51,053 nt of DNA from Planctomycetaceae bacterium (GTDB lineage: Bacteria; Planctomycetota; Planctomycetia; Planctomycetales; Planctomycetaceae): the NCBI GenBank assembly GCA_021732845.1, contig JAKFUF010000134.1, positions 1 to 51,053 of the forward strand, read 5' to 3'. A program made the position numbers and the translations under genes. How positions within the stretch are numbered: position 1 is the first letter of the stretch; every line of letters begins with the position of its first letter. The notes under the pieces were generated by a model. That model was not told the DNA's origin. It was given only the letters and a program-made list of their open reading frames with translations, and did not search any database. Positions 10,388 to 19,608 of this stretch are shown piece after piece.

Positions 10388-11395
10388 GTGACTACGGAGC
10401 TTGACGCTTTCGAGCGGGAACAGCGGGTCGTCGAACAGATCCGCGGCAGTCGCAAACGGATCGATGCGGAGCTGTCCAAGGTGATCGTCGGCCAGGCCGA
10501 TGTCGTGCAGCAACTGCTGATCAGCCTGTTCGCCGGCGGACACTGCCTGATCACCGGAGCCCCCGGCCTGGCGAAGACGCTGCTGGTGCGGTCCATCGCC
10601 CAGATCTTTCACCTGAAATTTCAGCGGATCCAGTTCACCCCCGACCTGATGCCGGCCGACATTACCGGCACGGAAATCCTGGAGCAGTCGGCCGAGGGGC
10701 AACGGAAGATGCAGTTCGTCAAGGGGCCGATCTTCGGCAATGTGATCCTCGCCGACGAAATCAACCGCACGCCGCCAAAGACCCAGGCCGCACTGCTGGA
10801 GGCGATGCAGGAACACCAGGTCACGGTCGCTGGCGTCCGTTATCCGCTGGAAGAGCCGTTCTTTGTGCTCGCCACACAAAACCCGATCGAGATGGAGGGC
10901 ACCTATCCGCTGCCGGAAGCCCAGCTCGACCGGTTCATGTTCAACGTGCTGATTGATTATCTCCCCGAGAACGACGAAGTGGCGGTGGTGAAGCAGACCA
11001 CCTCGCGCCGGCCGGCTCCGATTGAGCCCCTGTTCACCGGCGACGACGTTCGTGGCTTCCACGAAATCGTGCAGAAGGTGCCAATCGCCGAGGATGTGAT
11101 CCGCTATGCCGTCCGCATTGCCGCCACGAGCCGACCCGGTCAGTCGGCCACGCCGCAGTTCATCACCGACTGGGTGAGCTGGGGAGCCGGCACGCGGGCC
11201 GCGCAATACATGGTGCTGGGTGCCAAAGCCCGCGCGCTGCTTGCCGGCCGCAACAACGCCACCACCGAAGACATCCGCGCCCTGGCCCACGCCACCCTGC
11301 GGCACCGCATCCTCGTCGGCTACCGCGCCGAGGCGGAGGGGATCACCGCGGAAAAGGTCATCGACCGGATTCTGGAGGTTGTGCCCGCGCCGTAG
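10388..11395 (+). CDS. MoxR family AAA+ ATPase
   Basis: The 335-aa protein is a complete MoxR-type AAA+ ATPase: Walker A GAPGLAKT (57-64), Walker B VILADEIN (119-126), the MoxR signatures LMPADITGTEIL, GPIFGN, RTPPKTQAALLEAMQE and ATQNPIE.EGTYPLPEAQLDRF, and an AAA lid domain at the C-terminus. MoxR proteins act as chaperone-like remodelers, usually beside DUF58 and von Willebrand A domain genes. None of those partners is present, so this copy is an orphan or serves an unlinked partner. The GTG start is supported by an AAGGGCGG-like ribosome site. The ParB-like/nuclease pair begins 152 nt downstream on the same strand, so co-transcription is possible but not shown. Confidence 0.9.
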   Translation: MTTELDAFEREQRVVEQIRGSRKRIDAELSKVIVGQADVVQQLLISLFAGGHCLITGAPGLAKTLLVRSIAQIFHLKFQRIQFTPDLMPADITGTEILEQSAEGQRKMQFVKGPIFGNVILADEINRTPPKTQAALLEAMQEHQVTVAGVRYPLEEPFFVLATQNPIEMEGTYPLPEAQLDRFMFNVLIDYLPENDEVAVVKQTTSRRPAPIEPLFTGDDVRGFHEIVQKVPIAEDVIRYAVRIAATSRPGQSATPQFITDWVSWGAGTRAAQYMVLGAKARALLAGRNNATTEDIRALAHATLRHRILVGYRAEAEGITAEKVIDRILEVVPAP

Positions 11396-11547: not shown

Positions 11548-12672
11548 ATGCCCGACCCGTATCAACGCTTCGAGACGAGCAAGCTCCTGCTGGACCCGGA
11601 GAACCCGCGGCTCGTCGAGTTCGATCTTGGCCCCGAGCCCAGGCAATTCGATATTTTGAAAACTCTCTGGGAACGCATGGCCGTCACTGAAGTCGCGATG
11701 TCCATTGCCTGGAACGGATACTTTGCCCACGAACCGCTGTTCATTGAGAAAGACGAAGACGGCCAGTTGATTGTCATTGAAGGCAACCGCCGCCTCGTCG
11801 CCGTCAAATTGCTGCTTGATGCGCAACTGCGAAAGAAGGTCGGAGCCACGGACCTTCCAGAGATCGACAAGATTGATCCGAACCGCCGCGCGGAGTTGCT
11901 TTCGCTGCCTGGACAGCTCACCACTCGCAGGGATCTGTGGCGCTATCTGGGATTCAAGCATGTCAACGGGACGGCAACCTGGGGGGCGTACGCCAAGGCT
12001 CAATACGTCGCGAAAATTCACAACGAGTACGGCGTCCCTCTGGAAGCGATCGCCCAGCAGATTGGGGACTACAACAACACGGTGGAACGGCAGTATCATG
12101 GCCTCATGGTTGTGGAGCAGGCGGAGCGGGCCAAAGTCTTCAACCGCAACAATGCCATGCGAAAGCGGGGGTTTGAATTCAGTCACGTTTACGAAGGGTT
12201 GGGGCGCGAGGGGATTCAGAGGTTTCTTGGTCTGACCCGGGAATCTCGCGGGAGAAAAGACCCCGTCCCTTCCGGAAAAATCAAACACCTCGGCGAGTTG
12301 CTCGAGTGGCTCTACGGCAACAACGCCAAGAATATTGAACCGCGGATGCGAACGCAGTCGAAGGACCTGGAGGTGCTGAGTTCTGTCCTCTTGTCGAAGG
12401 ATGGAGTCCACGCTTTGCGAAGCGGTCTCAGCCTGGAACTCGCCCGAGACGCGGCGATGGGTGACGAGCAGTTGTTCAAGCAGGCGCTTGCGCATTGCAA
12501 GGGCACTCTGCAGGACTGTGTCGGCCTGGTGCCGACGGGATTTGAACCGGGAGATGATTATTCCTTCTCGCAGGCGCAGGGCATCGAACACCTGGCCACG
12601 GAACTGGTCGATTCCATGATCAAACGCCGCAAAAAGCGCCGCCGGTCCCAGGAGGCCAGTGTGGATGCGTAG
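11548..12672 (+). CDS. ParB/sulfiredoxin-fold protein, partner of nuclease-like gene
   Basis: The 374-aa protein begins with a ParB/Srx-like domain. HEPLFIEKD (about 61-69) corresponds to the first ParB box, and VIEGNRRLVAVKLL (about 77-90) is a variant of the GERRxxA nucleotide-binding box. A helical middle region (WGAYAKAQYVAKIHNEYGVPLEAIAQQIG, about 145-175) looks like the ParB helix-turn-helix area. The C-terminus is strongly basic (IKRRKKRRR), fitting nucleic-acid contact. It is not a chromosome-partitioning ParB: there is no parA neighbour and no parS site was noticed. Its last 8 nt overlap the next gene. The pairing suggests a nucleotide- or DNA-sensing component of a two-gene module. 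That role is inference. Confidence 0.75.
   Translation: MPDPYQRFETSKLLLDPENPRLVEFDLGPEPRQFDILKTLWERMAVTEVAMSIAWNGYFAHEPLFIEKDEDGQLIVIEGNRRLVAVKLLLDAQLRKKVGATDLPEIDKIDPNRRAELLSLPGQLTTRRDLWRYLGFKHVNGTATWGAYAKAQYVAKIHNEYGVPLEAIAQQIGDYNNTVERQYHGLMVVEQAERAKVFNRNNAMRKRGFEFSHVYEGLGREGIQRFLGLTRESRGRKDPVPSGKIKHLGELLEWLYGNNAKNIEPRMRTQSKDLEVLSSVLLSKDGVHALRSGLSLELARDAAMGDEQLFKQALAHCKGTLQDCVGLVPTGFEPGDDYSFSQAQGIEHLATELVDSMIKRRKKRRRSQEASVDA
12650..12655 (+). promoter_or_regulatory. Ribosome binding site inside the ParB-like gene
   Basis: AGGAGG lies within the last codons of the ParB-like gene, 9 nt before the ATG at 12665. It selects that ATG over the GTG at 12659, which would be only 3 nt away, and supports translational coupling of the two proteins. 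Confidence 0.7.
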
Positions 12673-13681
12673 CCTGCGCGAACTTTCGGTCCGCACCGAC
12701 AGCGCCGAGCAATTGGCGGATTGGGTGGAAATCTCGGCCTTTCTGTGTGATGACAAGTCCGTTTCCAAAGAGGATTTGGCGCGGGCTTTGGTTCGCGAAG
12801 GCTCAAACCAAGGCGAACAGCTCTATCGTGACAAGGCGACCGAAGCTTTCGACGAACTGGCCGCTCGAGAAGCAGCGGTTGGAAACTCAATCTCCGTTGA
12901 TCCAATTGCCGCCTATCCGTTTGAGATTGACGGCGATCTTTTGAGGCTGCGGGTTGATCCCTTCGACGAACATGGCCGGGGGGCAGTGTATGCATTCTTG
13001 CTGGCAGCGACGCGCGCCAGCATGGACTCGCGCACACGAAAGCTGGCGAATCTTGATCCGACGGTGCTCTTCGAGATGATTTGCGCCGAAGCGCTGTGCC
13101 AGTTTTGGGGCGGGCGGTCTGCAGTTTCTGATGTGCTGGTGACCGGCACCAGCAATCAATCGCTGCCCGCGGGCAATGCTCGCTTCCCGTCGATCATCGA
13201 GTCGCTTTCAGGTCAGATCCGGGAAGGCGGCGGTTGGAAAAAAGGAGCCAGGTCACCCGGAGCCGGGGATGGCGGCCTGGACATCGCGGTTTGGCGCCGG
13301 TTCCACGACAGACGACCCGGGTCGTTGGTCGGCTTCGCCCAGTGCAAGACTGGCGACAATTGGCGCGATCATTTGGGAAAACGCAACCCCTCCAGCATTT
13401 CCTGCAAATATTTCAGCAGCCCGTTGGTCATCGCCCCGGTGCCGATCTACATGGTCCCGTGCCGGGTCGGCCTGGAGGAATGGGCGGACGTGATGCGCCA
13501 GCATTCCGGCCTGTTGTTTGATCGCTGTCGAATCACGACCTGCTGCACCCACCTGCCGCATCAGAGGATTGGCGAGTGCCAGAGATGGGCGCACGCCGCA
13601 ATTCGCCGTGAATTGGACGAATTAATTAGCAAAAAACTTGTGCCGCCTTCCAGCGGAGGAACGGTCAAAATGACTCGTTGA
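12665..13681 (+). CDS. PD-(D/E)XK (restriction endonuclease-like) protein
   Basis: The 338-aa protein carries the Mrr-type arrangement of PD-(D/E)XK nucleases: a helix containing FEMICAEAL (Glu near 137), then GDGGLDIAVW (Asp near 206), then GFAQCKTG (Q-x-K at 226-228). Such proteins cut or nick DNA. The target and specificity cannot be read from the sequence. The N-terminal 130 residues are unassigned and may hold the regulatory or DNA-contact domain. The reading frame overlaps the upstream ParB-like gene by 8 nt (ATGCGTAG) with a perfect internal ribosome site, so both proteins should be made together. Candidate role: defence against foreign DNA. It converges on the aminotransferase gene downstream. 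Confidence 0.78.
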   Translation: MRSLRELSVRTDSAEQLADWVEISAFLCDDKSVSKEDLARALVREGSNQGEQLYRDKATEAFDELAAREAAVGNSISVDPIAAYPFEIDGDLLRLRVDPFDEHGRGAVYAFLLAATRASMDSRTRKLANLDPTVLFEMICAEALCQFWGGRSAVSDVLVTGTSNQSLPAGNARFPSIIESLSGQIREGGGWKKGARSPGAGDGGLDIAVWRRFHDRRPGSLVGFAQCKTGDNWRDHLGKRNPSSISCKYFSSPLVIAPVPIYMVPCRVGLEEWADVMRQHSGLLFDRCRITTCCTHLPHQRIGECQRWAHAAIRRELDELISKKLVPPSSGGTVKMTR

Positions 13682-13769
13682 ATTGATGCGCGACATCCCG
13701 CCAACGTCAGTCTGGTCCGTTGGAAGGATGTGCGACCAAATCACTTCATGACTCGAGCGATTGCCACGG

Positions 13770-14942
13770 CTACGCCAGCTTGGCGTTCGCCGCCGCCACG
13801 CCCGCGCCGGGCGGACAAGCGACGCCGTTGGCGGTCAGGCAGCGTTCCAGCGCGCCCAGCAGCAGCAGGACATTGCGAGGATAGGCGGTTTCGCCCATGA
13901 GGCCAATCCGCCAGGTCTTGCCCTTCATGGGGCCGAGGCCGCCGCCGATCTCGATGCCGAACTCGGTCAGCAGTTGCCTGCGGACCTTCATGTCGTCGAC
14001 GCCGGCGGGAATCAGCACGGCGTTGAGCTGCGGCAACTGGCAGTCAGCGGCGACTGCATACTTCAGCCCCATCGCCTGCAGACCGGCCTTGAGGGCGATG
14101 TGGTTGCGCAGATGTCGTGCATGGCGGGCTTCGAGGCCCTCTTCCAGCAGCAGCCGCAGCCCTTCATGCAGGGCATAGTTCATGTTGATCGGCGCGGTGT
14201 GGTGGTAGGCCCGGTCCTGGCCCCAGTAATTGCGGACGAGGCTCAGGTCGAAATACCAGCTCGAAACCTTCGTCTTCCGCTTGTCGAGGGCAGCCACGGC
14301 GCGGGGGCCAAACGTCACGGGAGACAACCCCGGCGGGCAGCTCAGGCATTTCTGCGTGCCACTATAGACCGCATCCAGGCCCCAGGCGTCGACTTCCACC
14401 GGAACGCCGCCCAGGGATGTCACCGCATCGACCACCAGCAGCGCGCCGGCGTCATGCACGATCTTGGAGATTTCTTCCAAGGGCTGCAGCGCCCCCGTCG
14501 AGGTCTCGGCATGGACGATCGCCACCACCTTGGGCTGCACGCGCTTCACAGCTTCGGCGACTTCAGCCGACGAAAACACCTCGCCAAACGGCCGTTCGAG
14601 AACGGTCACGTCCGCGCCCATGCGTTTGGCCATGTCGGCCATGCGGCCGCCGAAGACGCCCTTGACGCAGACGATGACCTTGTCGCCCGTCTCGATGAGG
14701 TTGACGAGGCTGGTTTCCATGCCGGCGGTGCCGGTGCCGCTGACTGCCAGGGTCAGCTCGTTCTGTGTGCGAAAGACCTGCCGCAGCATGACCTGCGTTT
14801 CGCTCATCACCTGCAGGAAGAATGGATCGAGGTGCCCGACAGTCGGGGCTCCCAGGGCGGCCAGGACGTGGGGATGCGTGTCACTGGGGCCGGGGCCCAT
14901 GAGAATACGACGTGGTGGATTGAGTGACGCGGGCAGTGACAT
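13770..14942 (-). CDS. Alanine-glyoxylate/serine-pyruvate aminotransferase family
   Basis: The 390-aa protein is a class V PLP-dependent aminotransferase. It has [13 protein letters not shown] at the N-terminus, [11 protein letters not shown] (cofactor phosphate region), [10 protein letters not shown] with the PLP-binding Asp near 172, and the Schiff-base lysine in [12 protein letters not shown] (Lys near 198). The GPGPS...GTQK.L..PPGL pattern is that of alanine-glyoxylate and serine-glyoxylate aminotransferases. The likely job is glyoxylate detoxification or glycine/serine interconversion in the cytoplasm. Length is normal for the family and all key residues are intact. It is a single-gene unit, convergent with the nuclease-like gene. 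Confidence 0.92.
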
Positions 14943-18869: not shown

Positions 18870-19031
18870 GAGGCCGCGACCGCGCTGGGAATCCAGCCAT
18901 TGGCGGAACCCGAACTGCGAGCAACCGCTGCCGACGCGAAACAGCCGTATTCCTCCGCCCAGTTCCAAAAAGTGATTGATGTCCGCTCTTTTCCCCGGCT
19001 GCCAGAGGCTGTGCCGAGTTTTGGCGACGAC

Positions 19032-19608
19032 AAGTTGCCGAGTCACTCCGTGACTCGCTCGGCGTTGCTCTTTCGTTCAACGACCGAACTCAAGTCGACA
19101 GCGTGATTCCAGAGCCTCCTTGTTTGTCCGCGCCGGACCATGCCCGCGGCCTCTCGCGGAGCGAAAGGCGACACAAAGTTGCCGAGTCACTCCGTGACTC
19201 GCTCGGCGTTACTCTTTCGTTCAACGACCGAACTCAAGTCGACAGCGTGATTACAGAGCCTCCGTGTTTGTCCTCACTGGACCACGCCCGCGGCCTCTCG
19301 TGGAGCGAGAGGCGACACAAAGTTGCCGAGTCACTCCGTGACTCGCTCGGCGTTACTCTTTCGTTCAACGACCGAACTCAAGTCGACAGCGTGATTCCAG
19401 AGCCTCCGTGTTTGTCCGCGCCGGACCATGCCCGCGGCCTCTCGCGGAGCGAAAGGCGACACAAAGTTGCCGAGTCACTCCGTGACTCGCTCGGCGTTGC
19501 TCTTTCGTTCAACGACCGAACTCAAGTCGACAGCGTGATTCCATAGCCTCCGTGTTTGTCCGCGCCGGACCACGCCCGCGTCCTTTCGCAGGAGCGAGAG
19601 GCGACACC
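19032..19608 (+). repeat. Four tandem copies of a 144-bp unit with two hairpins each
   Basis: Copies start at 19032, 19176, 19320 and 19464, spaced exactly 144 bp, and are nearly identical; the last copy differs most. Each unit contains cgagtcactccgtgactcg, a perfect 8-bp stem with a TCC loop, and a second hairpin of the gcctctcg...cgagaggc type. The second stem changes between copies yet keeps pairing. The period is a multiple of three, and one forward frame (19103-19546) stays open with a 48-residue repeat beginning IPEPPCLSAPDHARGLSRSE. It has no ribosome site, so coding is doubtful. It lies between two divergent genes. Confidence 0.9.

Follow-up and report, generated by a model that had tools for sequence, protein, structure and literature searches.

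A ParB-like protein and a predicted PD-(D/E)XK nuclease as probable restriction subunits of a usually three-gene restriction-modification module

What does a ParB-like gene do when it overlaps a putative nuclease gene, and which of its neighbors, if any, belongs with the pair? The question is raised by a stretch of Planctomycetaceae DNA of 51 kb (51,053 nucleotides; hereafter, the window), in which two genes lie on the forward strand with an overlap of 8 nt. Gene A (11548..12672; ATG at 11548, stop TAG at 12670-12672) encodes a protein of 374 amino acids predicted to combine an N-terminal ParB/Srx nucleotide-binding fold, an HTH region and long C-terminal helices. Gene B (12665..13681; ATG at 12665, stop TGA at 13679-13681) encodes a 338-residue protein predicted to join a winged helix to a PD-(D/E)XK nuclease, and an AGGAGG inside gene A (12650..12655, forward strand) is its presumed ribosome-binding site. 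The initial annotation had reported both reading frames, the overlap and the internal AGGAGG, and all lie where it placed them. It had also recognized no named defense system with exactly such a pair. The window A and B have no full-length match to a Pfam, NCBIfam or PADLOC model. Neither protein has a match that reaches the Pfam or NCBIfam cut-off, and an Rfam scan of the window returned no match. Phage protein families were matched by both: A aligns over nearly its whole length with phrog_3694 (7.7e-64), and B matches phrog_14650 (2.4e-11) as well as phrog_3984.

Structural prediction places A among the ParB-like proteins. Its AlphaFold2 model (pLDDT 94.7) has KorB as its best structural match (8qa9; Z 10.6, rmsd 5.1 over 200 aligned residues, covering residues 3-289 of the model), with Noc also among the best matches and nucleotide-bound ParB superposing at a Z of about 9 (rmsd 2.4, 92 residues), and these matches indicate that A is probably ParB-like in its HTH region as well as in its nucleotide fold. 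A profile search with A retrieved ParB (4umk) at 2.1e-05, aligning residues 79-82 of A, GNRR (11782..11793, forward strand), with the GERR of the solved protein. This phosphate-binding GxxR motif of the ParB-CTPase fold is invariant, together with the preceding E78, in all 71 aligned relatives, bearing out the ParB-type box GNRRLVAV that had been noticed from the sequence. The poly-basic tail noted at the same time is present as a basic C-terminus, but it is not common to the eight relatives compared. The loop GYFAHEP resembles the GFFKP loop of an ATP binder described in PMC12704722, a likeness that is only a hint as to the nucleotide that A might bind; according to the available text of that source, sequence offers no reliable reading of nucleotide specificity in ParB-CTPase folds. 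The HTH sequence of A varies with the class of the associated methylase, described below, but this variation is confounded with ancestry.

In B, structural comparison of the AlphaFold2 model (pLDDT 90.1) matched residues 10-120, approximately, to winged-helix proteins (5ocn, 2vqc) and residues 106-298, approximately, to PD-(D/E)XK enzymes, including BsmI (Z 7.3), MspJI (7.1), BsaWI (7.0) and Can2 (6.9). The top 25 structural rows are mostly restriction enzymes or Can/Card/Cdn nucleases, with Z values from 5.7 to 7.3. Since these values are moderate, the assignment to the PD-(D/E)XK group is based on the order of the structural elements and on the residues that they carry: the model presents the alpha-beta-beta-beta-alpha-beta core (H132-147, E155-159, E207-211, E221-227 and E259-263), with acidic residues and a Q/E-x-K motif in the expected strands. 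The predicted active site comprises E137 (13073..13075), the two aspartates of D202-D206 (DGGLD; 13268..13282) and Q226-C-K228 (13340..13348), all on the forward strand. The initial annotation had proposed an E...D...QxK pattern, of which D202, D206 and Q226 are present in 74 of 74 aligned B sequences; E137 is less strictly kept (E in 59, Q in 13, H in 1 and A in 1), and K228, found in 57 of 74, is replaced in one clade. The 17 sequences that lack K228 all carry a lysine at position 236, which is present in only two of the 57 that retain K228, so that a lysine occupies 228 or 236 in every one of the 74. This swap maps to one event on the tree and therefore does not amount to 17 independent supports. 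At the sequence level, B has no significant match to a solved chain or to a Pfam or NCBIfam family, and any given PADLOC family has at most one match among the 74 B proteins (E 0.01).

The association between the two genes was surveyed in viral loci (the best 80 of 148) and genome loci (the best 80 of 122), in Planctomycetota genomes, and in phage and plasmid loci. A census of places matching A at more than 200 bits, leaving out window copies and a stray hit (L001, L002 and L090), yielded 175 places, reduced to 147 by clustering A at 90% identity. In this census of best-scoring loci, B or part of B adjoins A in 145 of the 147 non-redundant loci, the window included, and the pairing is not due to chance. 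The cut-off of 200 bits keeps weaker, partial matches to A out of the census, including those in nine Planctomycetota genomes that lack B. These nine are part of a set of 14 Planctomycetota genomes with matches to the A profile; their partial matches look like other ParB-domain proteins, and they count against a strict coupling of A and B. B occurs in five of 392 Planctomycetota genomes, including that of the window, always beside A or an A fragment, and one of these copies is degenerate; the other genomes of the same family listed in the A survey returned no A match. The reverse survey, starting from B, identified 57 viral loci, 38 of them on contigs already among the best 80 of 148 A loci and 19 new; A is present in 56, the exception being a locus whose contig begins within B. 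The genome loci (best 80 of 122) span 16 named phyla, conservation of the pair as a unit across distant phyla being what the initial annotation had named as support, and many copies of the pair are found on bacterial genome contigs. Independent occurrence of A and B homologs, which would have spoken against a functional unit, is thus not what the census revealed.

The survey also revealed a usual third gene. Of the 137 non-redundant loci that either extend 1.3 kb to each side or show a methylase, 128 have a DNA methyltransferase of C5, D12 or PF01555 type adjoining A-B, at a distance of no more than 1.5 kb; one further locus has a remnant and eight, the window among them, have none. This count leaves out eight loci whose flanks are short and show no methylase; L186/L092 was assigned by hand to the methylase-bearing loci on account of overlapping ORFs, and L174/L184 to those with a remnant. 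The gene is arranged as D12 upstream on the same strand (48 loci), C5 downstream and convergent (34), PF01555-type downstream on the same strand (19), D12 downstream and convergent (17) or otherwise (10), with median gaps, as measured before clustering, of -40 to 47.5 nt except in one divergent case at 325 nt. One representative of each class was assigned by Pfam, to PF00145, PF02086 and PF01555, and the class changes at least six times on the A tree. A methylase also accompanies all 57 viral loci found with B. In the family, then, a methyltransferase is encoded with a predicted nuclease, and its adjacency in 128 of 137 loci gives the module the appearance of a restriction-modification system. 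The proposal of a two-protein module for sensing and cleaving DNA can be retained insofar as the pair, kept as a unit, is predicted to bind and to cut DNA, but it had missed the methyltransferase partner.

The eight loci with full flanks and without an adjoining methylase are L093, L139, L140, L168 (Runella limosa DSM 17973), L175, L005, L007 and the window. L093 is degenerate and has a longer form, L187, which is a degenerate fusion, and the islands of L005 and L007 contain a C5 methylase at a greater distance. Methylase remnants were located in L174 (10102-10356) and L184 (7077-7133) and also beside L145, and a fused remnant in L187 (8662-9846); two of L174, L184 and L187 decayed by internal deletion. 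At L112 (9077-11145), B is cut to a fragment of 57 residues; beyond it lie a NotI-type nuclease gene in convergent orientation (PF12183, 3.5e-42) and a D12 methylase gene, and one restriction enzyme has apparently been replaced there by another next to A. L114 has a similar layout, the B fragment itself having been seen in L112.

We conclude that A and B are quite probably the two restriction subunits of a usually three-gene restriction-modification module with a ParB-like restriction subunit. Gene coupling, predicted folds, conservation of the nucleotide-motif and nuclease residues, methylase adjacency and the exchange of methylase classes between lineages all support this conclusion; nucleotide use, cutting and dependence on methylation are what we infer from them. 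In such a module, A would act as a ParB-like sensor or loader, B as the winged-helix PD-(D/E)XK nuclease and the methyltransferase, M, as the enzyme marking self DNA. A would dimerize and use a bound nucleotide triphosphate to recognize, or load at, a DNA site left unmethylated by M, and would then recruit or activate B, which would cut the DNA. More tentatively, and with odds well short of even, A may work as a ParB-type nucleotide-gated clamp that loads at the unmethylated site, closes around the DNA with CTP or ATP and slides, while B, recruited or carried by the clamp, cuts away from the site; if so, the module would correspond, on a ParB basis, to the Type I and III enzymes, which translocate. 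Counting against a restriction reading are the window copy, which has no methylase, and the pairs without a methylase at L139, L140, L168 and L175 and with remnants only at L174 and L184, which are unexpected for a simple lethal restriction enzyme. So do the partial A matches without B in nine Planctomycetota genomes, the lack of a significant sequence match for B and the moderate Z values of its structural matches.

Mobile elements carry the module in several configurations. Searches of phage records with tblastn located A in 14 and B in five; Escherichia phage Wphi, a P2 record and a gut scaffold contain both, and profile searches placed B beside A in two further phages, 12474III and Pseudomonas phage D14A. 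A convergent DNA cytosine methyltransferase gene comes after the pair in Wphi (gp98, gp96, Mth), in D14A and in 12474III. In the last of these, a P2-like phage, the triad adjoins the portal gene, a place that the available text of PMC9519451 reports as a defense hotspot. Plasmid records contain A in seven cases and B in two: the pair precedes an in-operon methylase on a Mesorhizobium plasmid and a convergent D12-type methylase on a Vibrio campbellii replicon. In Escherichia coli, each of two triad queries has matches in about 139 of the 5,426 complete genomes, presumably the same 139, with 103 covering at least 80% of the Wphi query and 36 that of the 12474III query. Among the matches listed, RefSeq labels the three products ParB N-terminal domain-containing protein, hypothetical protein and DNA cytosine methyltransferase. 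The laboratory strain E. coli W, which has been called restriction minus, carries a complete A-B-methylase triad (NC_017664.1, 4335184-4338354) in a Wphi-type prophage; a putative 5-methylcytosine restriction system is noted in PMC3032704. A human gut phage scaffold (MT835579; L005, 745-9624) holds two convergent A-B pairs in one island, together with a Vsr protein, the C5 methylase and a Z1-domain protein.

That phages and plasmids carry the pair, and that A has a ParB fold with HTH, would also be expected of a partition or replication module of mobile elements, in which A would be a ParB for DNA maintenance and B a helper. The conserved nuclease active site of B, the methylase beside most pairs and the many copies on bacterial genome contigs make such a role very improbable.

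The methylase gene next to A-B in phage and plasmid loci also identifies the third gene of the module as the methylase, and not as the MoxR ATPase gene that precedes A in the window (10388-11395, on the same strand as A). MoxR, whose stop (11395) lies 152 nt ahead of gene A, had been considered by the initial annotation as a possible third part, and the spacing and shared orientation would fit a three-part system of ATPase, sensor and nuclease. No MoxR homolog was found, however, in the other A loci (L001-L190, window copies excepted), so that MoxR is not conserved beside the pair. MoxR orthologs are instead present in 40 of 40 relatives, whereas the other same-family genomes listed in the A survey have no A match, and MoxR has 12 matches in its own genome at E <= 1e-80. 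A gene that we take to be DUF58-like follows the five nearest MoxR orthologs in five of five cases, with what we assume to be a BatA-like gene as a further usual partner; in the genome of the window, the DUF58-like ortholog is on another contig (C22) with its BatA-like partner. Downstream of the pair, the window continues with a convergent gene, presumably for an aminotransferase, and in relatives where both could be placed (e.g. G373, G397) MoxR and the aminotransferase lie apart. The window MoxR thus appears, from gene order, to be half of a split housekeeping operon, and we see next to no chance that it forms a system with A and B.

If the pair is part of a restriction-modification module, the window copy is incomplete. 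No methyltransferase was found in the 51 kb of the window by profile searches or tblastn, so that here the predicted nuclease is encoded without one. On the A tree, the window A groups with L105, L106 (Paludisphaera soli) and L107 (SH-aLRT 99), in all of which a PF01555-type methylase ORF starts at or just before the B stop; the corresponding position in the window is an 88-nt gap (13682..13769) between B and the unrelated convergent gene. A methylase remnant after B was considered and rejected, matches in 13500-13900 being at chance level for the number of queries, and elsewhere in the genome the L105-L107 methylase family is represented by weak fragments only (best E 0.009). Taken together, the methylase of the nearest relatives, the 88-nt gap and the lack of a remnant or genomic copy indicate that the window copy is most likely an orphan restriction pair whose methylase was lost.

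Protection of the window pair in trans could come from any of four further methylase loci of the genome: a PF01555 methylase on C27, a ParB_N-PF01555 fusion on C72, a PF00145 methylase on C17 and a PF01555 methylase on C6, the last in two pieces, one with an internal stop. The C72 fusion protein (L202, 5538-6896) has, farther on, a large gene that presumably encodes a phage terminase. Clear decay of the window copy was not borne out, the signs being mild: A deviates at three of 41 conserved columns, with more deviations in 11 of 71 rows, and B at two of 21, with more in three of 74; none of the deviations is catalytic, and the active-site residues are intact. The window pair may be protected by another genomic methylase, functionally tamed or decaying. 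Elsewhere in the window, at positions 19023-19607, a 144-nt unit is repeated in tandem about four times (94% matches), and a long open frame runs through the repeats.

Pairs without a methylase would be expected if the pair cut foreign, modified DNA and needed no methylase of its own, in the manner of Type IV restriction, and the window copy would then be functional alone. Several such pairs exist, their aligned B rows deviating at zero to two of the 21 conserved columns, and GmrSD also has a ParB_N-type domain (PMC12373910). The retention of a methylase in 128 of 137 loci, the restriction of GmrSD_N matches to weak ones in three of 71 A members and the derived appearance of the methylase loss in the window on the A tree all count against modification-dependent restriction, which we regard as unlikely.

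Under the preferred reading, A-B-M is an apparently unnamed restriction-modification architecture extending across the 16 phyla of the 80-locus sample (best 80 of 122). If A uses nucleotide as ParB does, the module would represent another kind of nucleotide-dependent restriction and would assign a function to some of the orphan ParB proteins that mobile elements carry. The copies without a methylase, that of the window included, raise the question of how a cell tolerates a restriction pair when the methylase that would protect it is missing.

In the paper listings and passages covered by the literature searches, no description of an A-B-methylase module was found, and the module can be compared with several known systems. 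As in Type II restriction-modification, nuclease and methylase genes adjoin and the methylases are of differing classes; unlike there, the restriction half consists of two genes, one of them ParB-like, and to our knowledge Type II enzymes act without a ParB-like subunit. The GmrSD Type IV systems likewise couple a ParB_N-type domain to a nuclease, but in the available text of PMC12373910 this nuclease is of HNH or DUF1524 type and the systems consist of single genes or gmrSD doublets, unlike A-B, and neither window protein has the Pfam matches (GmrSD_N with HNH or DUF1524) that would place the pair among them. By gene make-up, the module resembles the operons of a ParB gene, a HEPN gene (MAE_28990) and a DNA methylase gene described by Anantharaman et al. 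2013 (PMC3710099), which also unite ParB, methylase and effector; as far as the available text goes, the effector there is a HEPN domain, whereas in A-B it is a predicted winged-helix PD-(D/E)XK protein. The survey of ParB-CTPase folds by Kaljevic et al. 2025 (PMC12704722) describes orphan ParB-fold proteins tied to mobile elements, with the GxxR motif and with CTP, ATP or GTP binding; the fusions in its available text are with methylases and HNH domains, not with an operon of nuclease and methylase such as that of A-B.

The closest relationship is with PD-lambda-5, which the available text of Vassallo et al. 2022 (PMC9519451) calls a compact RM+Abi system and reports to alter plating or plaque size for all but one of the phages tested. 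Residues 10-171 of A match positions 16-174 of the 473 of PADLOC PD-Lambda-5_A (3.6e-15), and an hhalign comparison with PD-Lambda-5_A-type proteins aligns 206 columns (99.1%, E 8.8e-19), so that the ParB-like N-terminal half of A is homologous to that of PD-Lambda-5_A. Many A-B systems also have a D12 methylase, PD-Lambda-5_B being present in the D12-type relatives and matched at 4.8e-101 by the methylase of the methylase-A-B operon in L117. Full PD-Lambda-5_A proteins, confirmed by PADLOC, adjoin A-B in L124 and L179, and similar longer ParB proteins, detected with the A profile only, occur at L138, L154, L157, L159 and L166. A defense similar to PD-lambda-5, with A sensing infection, abortive infection as the outcome and the methylase as regulator or decoy, would fit this homology and the RM+Abi designation. 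It is nevertheless improbable for A-B: profile comparison found no link between B and PD-Lambda-5_A, B has a conserved DNase-type active site, and other A-B members use C5 or PF01555 methylases. In the window, A is not a full-length PD-Lambda-5_A, profile searches revealed no D12 methylase of PD-Lambda-5_B type, and the genome has no PF02086 match at E <= 1. Where A-B has a separate predicted PD-(D/E)XK nuclease, PD-Lambda-5_A is a single, longer protein whose C-terminal half is different. The module identified here therefore shares its sensor half, and often its methylase, with a tested defense system from which it differs in an effector predicted to cut DNA.
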